The translations under genes were made by a program, and so were the position numbers. The notes under the pieces are model-generated. The model saw only the letters and a program-made list of their open reading frames with translations. It had not been told where the DNA came from and made no database searches. DNA of 64,000 bases from Candidatus Tanganyikabacteria bacterium (GTDB taxonomy: Bacteria > Cyanobacteriota > Sericytochromatia > S15B-MN24 > VGJW01): NCBI GenBank assembly GCA_016867265.1, contig VGJW01000020.1:1-64000 (forward strand), in the 5' to 3' direction. Below, one piece after another: positions 438-5,414 of the stretch (positions are counted from its first letter, which is position 1; each line of letters starts with the position of its first letter).

Positions 438-1403
438 ATGAACAAGATGAGATCGGGACTTTGGCCTCTGGTGTTCTTGGCCCTGTCAGCCTGTGTGAAC
501 GTGGTTTTGCCTGCACCCTCACCTACGCCTTCACCCAAGCCTTCACCTACACCTACACCTACACCTACACATTCCGCGACCCCGGTGCCTGGGCCAGCTC
601 CAACCCCCGTTGCTCGGCCTGCTGCCGTAGTGGTCCCCGCCGGCACCTTCCAGATGGGCTCCCCCTCCGACGAATTGGGCTCCCCCTCCAGCGAACCGGG
701 TCGTAATTCCGACGAGACTCTTCACCAGGTGACGCTTACGCGAGATTTCCTGATGCAGACCACAGAGGTGACGCAAGCCCAGTGGCAGGCGCGGATGGGC
801 AACAACCCCTCGTACCTCAGTGGCGACATGAGCCGTCCTGTCGATACGGTGAGCTGGTACGACGCCATAGCCTACGCCAACGCTCTTTCCGTTGCCGATG
901 GCCTACCCAAGGCCTACAACCTGTCCGGTTGCTCCGGTTCCCCGGGGGGCAGCTACTTTTGCAGCAACGTGACCCTGACAGCCTCCACCCCCTATGCGAC
1001 CACAGGCTGGCGCCTGCCCACGGAAGCAGAGTGGGAGTATGCGTACCGTGCCGGCAGCAGCACGGCGTGGTACTTCGGTTCCGACAGCAACCTGCTGGGG
1101 ACGTATGCCTGGTTCAACGGCAACAGCGACAGCAAGACCCATCCTGTAGCCCAGAAGCAACCCAATGCGTGGGGCTTGTACGACATGGCGGGCAATGTGT
1201 CCGAGTGGTGCTGGGACTGGCACGACACCTACCCGGGCACAGTGACGGATCCGGTGGGCCCCACAATAGGCTCGAACCGGGTGTCCCGCGGTGGGTCGTG
1301 GTACTACGGCGCGTCCTACGCGCGTGCGGCGTACCGCTACAGCTTCTACCCCGGCTACCGCTATAACAACTTCGGCTTCCGCCTTGCCAGGTCGAGGCCG
1401 TAG
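438..1403 (+). CDS. FGE-sulfatase/C-type-lectin domain lipoprotein, probable DGR variable protein
   Basis: A 321-residue lipoprotein. A hydrophobic signal ends in the lipobox LSAC (Cys19), followed by a Pro/Thr/Ser linker (about 26-60) and an FGE-sulfatase (SUMF1, C-type-lectin fold) domain from about 63 to the C-terminus. Family motifs seen are GTFQMGSP, TTEVTQAQW, WRLPTEAEWEYA, GLYDMAGNVSEWCWD and RGGSW...GFRL. From residue 289 to 312 the codons Tyr-Tyr-Gly, Ser-Tyr, Tyr, Tyr-Ser-Phe-Tyr, Tyr and Tyr-Asn-Asn-Phe all end in C or T. This is what adenine mutagenesis of AAC/AAT template codons gives in diversity-generating retroelements, whose commonest target domain is this one. The product would be a surface-displayed binding protein. 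No reverse transcriptase or template repeat is in the window, so it would be a remote target or the element lies upstream. Enzymatic FGE activity is unlikely. Confidence 0.85.
   Translation: MNKMRSGLWPLVFLALSACVNVVLPAPSPTPSPKPSPTPTPTPTHSATPVPGPAPTPVARPAAVVVPAGTFQMGSPSDELGSPSSEPGRNSDETLHQVTLTRDFLMQTTEVTQAQWQARMGNNPSYLSGDMSRPVDTVSWYDAIAYANALSVADGLPKAYNLSGCSGSPGGSYFCSNVTLTASTPYATTGWRLPTEAEWEYAYRAGSSTAWYFGSDSNLLGTYAWFNGNSDSKTHPVAQKQPNAWGLYDMAGNVSEWCWDWHDTYPGTVTDPVGPTIGSNRVSRGGSWYYGASYARAAYRYSFYPGYRYNNFGFRLARSRP
545..568 (+). repeat. Hexanucleotide microsatellite (four ACCTAC copies) in the lipoprotein linker
   Basis: Four perfect tandem copies of ACCTAC encode alternating Thr and Pro in the linker between lipid anchor and lectin-like domain. 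Six-base units keep the frame, so slippage would only change linker length. Confidence 0.85.
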
Positions 1404-1785
1404 GCCGAGGGCGTGTCACTTGGCTCTTGAACCCTTTGTCCCTTGACCCTATCGCCGAGGTCCGTAGCGAAGCCGGACCGGGGCGCGGAAAGCGGCCCTC
1501 TACAAGGGCCTAGAAGGCGTTTTTGTTTGCCGGGTGGGGTGGTAGCACCCCTCGCTTCTTGGCCTCGAGAACCATCAGTCCCGACAAAATATAAGAACCG
1601 ACCGTTTCTTGTATGGAGCATCGAGGTTACCCAGATCGATCAAGCCGCTCCGATGGGGTCCAATCCCAGTTGCAAGAGTCGGGCTTAGGCAGCCCACTCA
1701 CCCACCAAGAGCCGTACGTCGGTGTGGTGAGGCCAGCCTCAAGCGACTCGGGTTCATTCCTGCCGTCCCCCCGGCGTCCCCCCAG
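1404..1785 (+). other. Non-coding, structured tail behind the FGE/DGR-type gene
   Basis: About 380 bases without a convincing gene. Two perfect hairpins stand out: GGCCCT/AGGGCC at 1494-1510 and GGGGTG/CACCCC at 1536-1551. A T-rich stretch (GTTTTTGTTTG) lies between them. Base composition is patchier than in the neighbouring genes and includes an A/T-rich spot near 1584-1612. In known DGRs, hairpins just behind the variable region assist target recognition. These sit 90-150 bases beyond the stop codon, so that role is only a possibility; the first could equally be a terminator of the lipoprotein gene. Confidence 0.45.
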
Positions 1786-1786
1786 C

Positions 1787-1824
1787 AAAAAAGCGGGTCC
1801 CGGCGAAATCGCCGAAACCCGCTT
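1787..1824 (-). terminator. Rho-independent terminator of tRNA-Lys
   Basis: Read on the minus strand, AAGCGGGT pairs with ACCCGCTT, with an inner CGGCG/CGCCG stem, and a run of six T follows directly (1792-1787). It lies 10 bases beyond the tRNA-Lys 3' end. Confidence 0.85.
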
Positions 1825-1834
1825 CGTTCCTAGG

Positions 1835-1907
<73 letters not shown>

Positions 1908-4409: not shown

Positions 4410-5414
4410 GTGCCCCGTTCGCTGCCTCGTCTGCTCGCCGCCGCGCTGGCCTGTGCCATCGGCCTTTCCGCCTGCAAGGGCGAGGCGGACAGCACCGGCA
4501 CGCTGCGGGTCGGCCTCGTGACCGACGTGGGCGGCCTGAATGACCAGGGCTTCAACTCGCTGGCCTACAAGGGCCTGAAGCAGGCCAAGAAGGACTTTGA
4601 CGTCAAGACCTCGGTCATCGAGTCCCAGAAGGCCAGCGACTACGAGAAGAATCTCGCGCAGTTCGCCGGCGAGAAGTACGACCTCGTCATCAGCGTGGGC
4701 TTCATGATGGGCGACGCCACCCGCAAGGTGGCCGAGCGCTTCCCCGACGCCCGCTTCGCCATCGTCGACTTCCGCTACGACAAGGTCCTGCCCAACGTCG
4801 CCGGCTACACCTTTGCCGAGGAGCAGGCCGGCTTCCTTGCCGGGGCCCTTGCGGCGCTGACGACCAAGACCGGCAAGGTCGGCTTCGTGGGGGGCATGGA
4901 CGTCCCCGTGATCCACCGCTTCAAGGTCGGCTACGAGGCAGGCGTCAAGGAAGCTGCCCCTCAGGTCAAGATCCTGTCGGGCTACACCGGCAACTTCACG
5001 GATTCCGCCAAGGGCGCCGAGGTGGCGACATCGCAGTACCAGAACGGTGCCGACATCGTTTTCCAGGCGGCCGGGGCGAGCGGTATCGGCGTCATCGACG
5101 CCGCCAAGCAGCAGAAGAAGCTGGCCATCGGCGTCGACGCCGACCAGAGCGGCATCGCGCCCGACTACGTCCTGTCGAGTGCCCTCAAGAAGGTCGATCT
5201 GGCTGTCGTCAAGGCCGTGGCCTCGGTCAAGGACAAGTCCTTCAAGGGTGGCAACACCAAGCTGACGCTTGCCGACGATGCCGTGGGCCTTGCGCCCTTC
5301 GGCAAGCTCGAGGCGCAGGTCGCGCCCGAGACCGGCAAGAAGCTCGACGATCTGCGCGTCAAGCTGGCGGACGGCACGATCAAGGTCAAGCTCGACAAGG
5401 CCGACGAGAACTGA
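4410..5414 (+). CDS. BMP/PnrA family nucleoside-binding lipoprotein
   Basis: Substrate-binding component of an ABC importer, anchored by lipid outside the inner membrane. GTG start behind a CCGAGGA ribosome site. The signal peptide ends in the lipobox LSAC (Cys22), then comes the BMP domain with GLVTDVGGLNDQGFN, SVGFMMGDA, GYTFAEEQAGFLAG and KVGFVGGMDVP. These are typical of PnrA/BmpA/NupN proteins, which bind purine nucleosides. The length (334 residues) is normal. It is the first gene of a four-gene operon with an RbsA-like double ATPase and two permeases. The exact nucleoside cannot be read from the sequence; BMP relatives also bind other small ligands. Confidence 0.92.
   Translation: MPRSLPRLLAAALACAIGLSACKGEADSTGTLRVGLVTDVGGLNDQGFNSLAYKGLKQAKKDFDVKTSVIESQKASDYEKNLAQFAGEKYDLVISVGFMMGDATRKVAERFPDARFAIVDFRYDKVLPNVAGYTFAEEQAGFLAGALAALTTKTGKVGFVGGMDVPVIHRFKVGYEAGVKEAAPQVKILSGYTGNFTDSAKGAEVATSQYQNGADIVFQAAGASGIGVIDAAKQQKKLAIGVDADQSGIAPDYVLSSALKKVDLAVVKAVASVKDKSFKGGNTKLTLADDAVGLAPFGKLEAQVAPETGKKLDDLRVKLADGTIKVKLDKADEN

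Follow-up and report, generated by a model that had tools for sequence, protein, structure and literature searches.

The window, by which we mean the whole stretch of 64,000 nucleotides analysed here (C20:1-64000), belongs to an assembly of 41 contigs (2.85 Mb, 98.2% complete). Close to its left end, it carries a gene for a predicted surface lipoprotein with a variable region (VR) matching a template repeat (TR) located on another contig, C37. The following features were found at this locus:

438-1403, plus strand: target gene (ORF, 321 aa), encoding a predicted surface lipoprotein with a C-terminal FGE/C-type-lectin-like domain
438-494, plus strand: putative lipoprotein signal peptide (MNKMRSGLWPLVFLALSAC, read from the sequence) bearing the lipobox LSA-C (Cys19); a Pro/Thr-rich linker comes next
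1269-1390, plus strand: VR of 122 bp, matching TR_C37 (C37:4938-5059, minus strand), with 16/32 A and 1/90 non-A positions changed
1284-1371, plus strand: span of the diversified bases, from base-by-base comparison with TR_C37
1372-1390, plus strand: invariant 3' end of the VR, candidate IMH (initiation of mutagenic homing), identical in TR_C37 and in the VRs of the window, C22, and C14
1391-1605, plus strand: 3' flank common to other targets (C14 88%, C12 86%; C22 87% over the first 55 bases)
1396-1406, plus strand: inverted repeat GGCC-GTA-GGCC, candidate post-IMH stem-loop, directly after the VR and overlapping the stop codon

An FGE-sulfatase domain covers residues 61-318 of the window protein (Pfam, E=9.7e-50), whose closest solved structure (PDB, E=2e-48) is 2y3c, the variable protein 1 (TvpA) of Treponema denticola, itself a DGR target (PMC4891356). 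The alignment of both proteins is free of gaps across the VR and GFRLA. Together with the lipobox at Cys19, these matches bear out the earlier note on this DNA, which had proposed an FGE/lectin lipoprotein. The FGE identity is a match at the level of the fold family, and a catalytic role would be putative; no NCBIfam equivalog cut-off was reached by the window protein. The lipoprotein is presumably displayed at the cell surface, and its hypervariable face probably binds extracellular ligands. Directly 5' of the target gene, at the contig end, a small ORF (45-401) gives matches to families of the small subunit of phage terminase (phrog_4102, E=1e-21).

A search of the assembly with the window VR DNA revealed, besides the query itself, matches on C37, C22 (twice), C14, and C12, and a PF00078 search detected exactly two reverse transcriptases (RTs), on C22 and C37. 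Two of the VR-like matches lie directly after these RTs and are the template repeats, TR_C37 and TR_C22, and the recognisable VRs in the assembly are four (window, C14, C22, and C12). The two cassettes are organised as follows:

C37:7119-6487, minus strand: HRDC protein
C37:6490-6101, minus strand: Avd
C37, minus strand, ending at 5080: RT
C37:5059-4938, minus strand: TR
C22:35148-37658, plus strand: FGE target with VR
C22:37697-38338, plus strand: HRDC
C22:38335-38724, plus strand: Avd
C22:38702-39754, plus strand: RT
C22:39790-39911, plus strand: TR

Both cassettes are complete and present the same gene order, HRDC - Avd - RT - TR, with matches to HRDC (PF00570), bAvd (PF22296), DivGenRetAVD (NF033474, above cut-off), and RVT_1, the Avd being also matched by the PHROG family "Avd protein of DGR". 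Taking YxDD and [IVL]GxxxSQ in place of QGxxxSP as the marks of a DGR-type RT, both enzymes belong to this type, as they carry RYMDDILV (YMDD) and GLPIGNLTSQ (DGR signature IGNLTSQ; GLPIGNLTSQHFA). The nearest solved RT structure in the PDB is 8ub7, "Reverse transcriptase" (E=8e-43), which we take to be the Bordetella phage DGR RT complex. The earlier note had suggested searching the rest of the genome for a template of ~100 bases with AAC codons and for a DGR RT, and two of each were present, on C37 and C22. It had also left two placements for the machinery; that of a remote target held, with the cassettes on other contigs, and that of a cassette to the left of position 1 was not borne out, the window starting at C20:1.

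A phage origin finds no support, since the RT relatives in IMG/VR are only 24-36% identical; scanning IMG/VR for near-identical VR/TR cores returned none, and a GTDB scan with the RT returned one planctomycete (40% identity). Contig C37 ends close upstream of its HRDC gene, starting CCCTTGTCCC, which resembles the 3' flank of the targets, and in both C22 and the related genus G001 this flank lies immediately upstream of the HRDC gene. A further, unassembled target likely adjoins the C37 cassette. In addition, a relative from the same class (G012; L083, reverse strand 61-260 and 2230-2480) shows a classic cassette with a local VR.

Comparison of the window VR with TR_C37 revealed 17 mismatches over 122 bp, 16 of them on the 32 template adenines and one at the 90 other positions (Fisher p = 2.1e-10), in agreement with the adenine-specific diversification that had been claimed for this gene. 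All 16 adenine-site changes (positions 1284, 1285, 1302, 1305, 1309, 1317, 1320, 1332, 1338, 1342, 1344, 1345, 1347, 1356, 1362, and 1371) fall at codon positions 1 and 2, and the sole non-A difference, C1364T, is a synonymous, drift-like change at a third codon position. The other VRs behave similarly: against TR_C37, VR_C22 is changed at 18/32 A and 2/90 non-A positions, and VR_C14, which also has one inserted codon, at 21/32 and 1/90, while VR_C12 against its best template, TR_C22, is changed at 16/31 A and 3/91 non-A positions. The extra in-frame codon of VR_C14 (+3 nt relative to TR_C37; C14:88213-88349, minus strand; L041) could come either from slippage during copying or from a later insertion.

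Ordinary divergence of paralogs, or positive selection acting on a lectin-like domain without any retroelement, would be in line with the fast evolution of which binding faces are capable and with the presence in this genome of FGE-domain paralogs without VRs (C6, C9). However, an A-rich template repeat lies beside a DGR RT and the differences sit on its adenines (p = 2e-10), a template match that refutes this explanation and leaves it hardly credible. As the window VR matches TR_C37 with differences restricted to adenines, the window gene is almost certainly a remote DGR target, written in trans from that template.

The VR comprises residues 278-318 and ends at 1390, with the gene ending at 1403; it thus occupies the 3' end of the FGE/CLec-fold gene. 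The earlier note had placed it at 1287-1403, and a variable region is indeed there, but its limits have to be moved to 1269-1390, as given by the template; two diversified bases at 1284-1285 (Ser283), 5' of RGGSW, had fallen outside. The RGGSW motif, the NNC-type Tyr, Ser, Gly, Phe, and Asn codons at residues 289-312, and the GFRL ending were all there as described. In the TR, 17 codons are mutable (14 AAC, plus GAC, ACG, and ATC); they give access to no stop codon (0/17) and to ~1.9e18 possible protein variants. In the window VR, A>T changes account for 12 of the 16 adenine substitutions, whereas the VRs of C22, C14, and C12 together have 10 such changes among 55 (p = 5e-5, post hoc), and eight Tyr are encoded, a richness that could reflect selection for a Tyr-rich binding face.

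In the sequence just 5' of the VR, the window gene shares 89% identity with its C14 counterpart and 69% with that of C22, whereas the non-A positions inside the VR form a homogenised backbone, 98% identical to C14 (2/90 differ) and 97% to C22 (3/90 differ). At the template-adenine positions, the window VR differs from C14 at 27/32 and from C22 at 23/32. Because the 5' flanks differ by 11-31% but the non-A bases of the VRs at only 2-3 of 90, the VRs were overwritten after duplication of the genes; this pattern is expected of rewriting from a common template and not of ordinary divergence. The likeness could alternatively stem from gene conversion between VRs instead of TR-derived cDNA, for which the duplicated 3' flanks common to the targets would offer some ground, but the paralog VRs differ most at the template adenines (20-27/32) and least elsewhere, the block of identity stops at the TR footprint, and no two VRs with the same set of A-position substitutions were seen; we regard conversion as very improbable.

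The FGE genes on C6 and C9 were also considered as targets and rejected, as they have no TR-like end. On C30 (L045 2200-2520), an FGE gene in decay, interrupted by stops and ending in a degraded TR-like stretch, adjoins a gene similar to the one downstream of cassette C22; it would be the relic of an older target.

The templates TR_C37 and TR_C22 differ at 10 positions, which allowed each VR to be assigned; bases specific to TR_C22 stand at repeat sites 14, 20, 47, 56, 83, 85, 86, and 116 (zero-based). The VRs of the window, C14, and C22 fit TR_C37 at 10/10 of these sites (with A or a substituted A at adenine sites), and VR_C12 fits TR_C22 at 10/10. TR_C22 matches only VR_C12, whose gene is a pseudogene (frameshift and stop). 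As VR_C22 fits TR_C37 at all the discriminating sites, the target resident in cassette C22 appears to have been written from TR_C37 and not from the template next to it. The RT of C37 forms a group with that of G001 in the tree (bootstrap 81), and C22 branches outside it. At repeat sites 47, 56, and 83 (zero-based), TR_C37 shows C, T, and C, TR_C22 and TR_G001 show G at all three, and G012 shows A, C, and G. The three states of TR_C37, which VR_C22 also has, seem to be specific to the C37 template and to have arisen after the cassettes split. An older state of TR_C22 preserved in VR_C22 is disfavoured by the outgroup states (G001, G012), and the comparison, made on few sequences and with moderate support, suggests that VR_C22 was rewritten across cassettes.

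Covariation analysis pointed to an RNA fold 3' of the templates, a candidate DGR spacer RNA family:

L039 4820-4942, minus strand: candidate spacer RNA
L040 5908-6032: candidate spacer RNA
L055 2134-2258: candidate spacer RNA

After the TRs of C37, C22, and G001, the spacer can form three helices: immediately 3' of the TR a stem of 6 bp, then one of 3 bp, and finally a hairpin of 10 bp, with a conserved GACCATCGT..CCGAGCC stretch 3' of them. Among these three sequences, 12 of the 19 pairs are changed on both sides. Pairing was observed in 96.5% of cells, versus 38-54% in slid controls, and none of 500 shuffles equalled the observed values, the structure having been derived from the same three sequences used for the test, which favours the fold. 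The covariance model gave exactly two convincing matches in its own genome, both at the TRs, and one in G001, with nothing convincing beyond these. The fold after the TR of G012 is similar-looking, but it does not align with the spacer and is not matched by the model. The fold occupies the same place, 3' of the TR, as the spacer of BPP-1, which recruits RT-Avd and primes cDNA synthesis (PMC12875486). Template sharing is plausible because the same fold follows both templates, and this common fold could let the two machineries share them. We give about even chances to the proposal that the two cassettes share templates, with the C37 template rewriting targets genome-wide, including the one resident in C22, the C22 template left with only a pseudogene, and the common covarying fold letting either RT-Avd use either template RNA.

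VR and TR part directly after the 19-bp candidate IMH end (GTCG in the VR, CCCG in the TR), and the putative IMH role of 1372-1390 is drawn by analogy with BPP-1. The GGCC stem that follows is kept at each of the four VRs in this genome (with loop ATA in C12) and absent after the TRs; it has 4 bp, and the window copy folds no better than shuffles (z = 0.4). The BPP-1 stem-loop after the VR is longer than this 4-bp stem, and G012 shows at the same position a 7-bp stem-loop, AGGCCAT-GAA-ATGGCCT. The common 3' flank at 1391-1605 would be a trace of target-gene duplication. In addition, two of the targets (window and C14) lie tail-to-tail with the tRNA genes Lys-CTT and Asn-GTT (window 1742-1907; L041 2300-2460), with a terminator-like stretch between target and tRNA gene common to both loci, an arrangement that is possibly a trace of how the target genes spread.

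In the mechanism that we propose, the C37 cassette supplies the HRDC accessory, Avd, RT, and a 122-bp TR whose RNA runs into the structured spacer. The RT-Avd complex would then copy the TR RNA into cDNA, placing random bases opposite the template adenines, and in target genes bearing a homologous IMH end the cDNA would take the place of the corresponding 3' end. The window gene on C20, the C14 gene, and the C22-adjacent target have all been rewritten from TR_C37 in trans on this reading. The single non-A change in the window VR suggests that some time has elapsed since its last rewriting. The DGR may be active at present.

A sub-case of this explanation, which differs from it only in present activity, is that the window VR is a former target, once written by TR_C37 and now frozen, with a selected Tyr-rich variant kept. 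The A>T bias (post hoc) and the eight Tyr would fit such selection, a single synonymous change by drift is present, and frozen remnant targets are discussed in the accessible sections of the Nostoc PCC 7120 study (PMC7517822). However, drift at non-A positions amounts to 1/90 while the neighbouring gene sequence is 11% off its closest paralog, and the IMH end and the cassette genes are intact; we consider freezing possible, although rather doubtful.

Returning to remote rewriting from TR_C37, parts of this arrangement are already known. The TvpA DGR of T. denticola (PMC4891356; PDB 2y3c) has FGE/CLec-fold lipoprotein targets, an HRDC accessory gene, and remote targets in one genome, as here, but HRDC is encoded there between the TR and the RT, whereas both cassettes described here combine HRDC with Avd and have the TR downstream of the RT. 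One remote VR of T. denticola SP32 fits a TR of another type, now absent from the genome (PMC4891356), whereas both templates are present here. The BPP-1 DGR (PMC12875486, PMC3240598; PDB 8ub7) likewise has Avd, RT, adenine-specific change, an IMH end, and a structured spacer 3' of the TR. Its TR precedes the RT and serves one local target, in contrast to the TR after the RT and the remote targets found here. To our knowledge, the BPP-1 DGR has no HRDC gene. Among cyanobacteria, dispersed DGR targets and genomes with two DGRs are described, e.g., in Nostoc PCC 7120, which resembles our genome in its several dispersed targets and two cassettes (PMC7517822, accessible sections). The Nostoc targets are CLec proteins, partly fused to kinase domains and most of them predicted to be cytosolic, and those sections do not mention the use of a template across cassettes. 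Within the limited open-access literature, no account came to light of a target that resides in one cassette and is written by the template of another present in the same genome. FGE-fold lipoproteins as DGR targets, HRDC as an accessory, and targets at remote sites were known already, and what is unusual here is the cross-cassette template use to which VR_C22 points.

In conclusion, whole-genome sequence confirmed a remote DGR target, a type of target that escapes contig-based surveys; Roux et al. (2021, PMC8144416) state that their approach is unable to detect remote targets. By means of the conserved spacer fold, templates may be found even where their targets are lacking, and, with both templates and several targets in one genome, competition or sharing between two cassettes can be read from the VRs.
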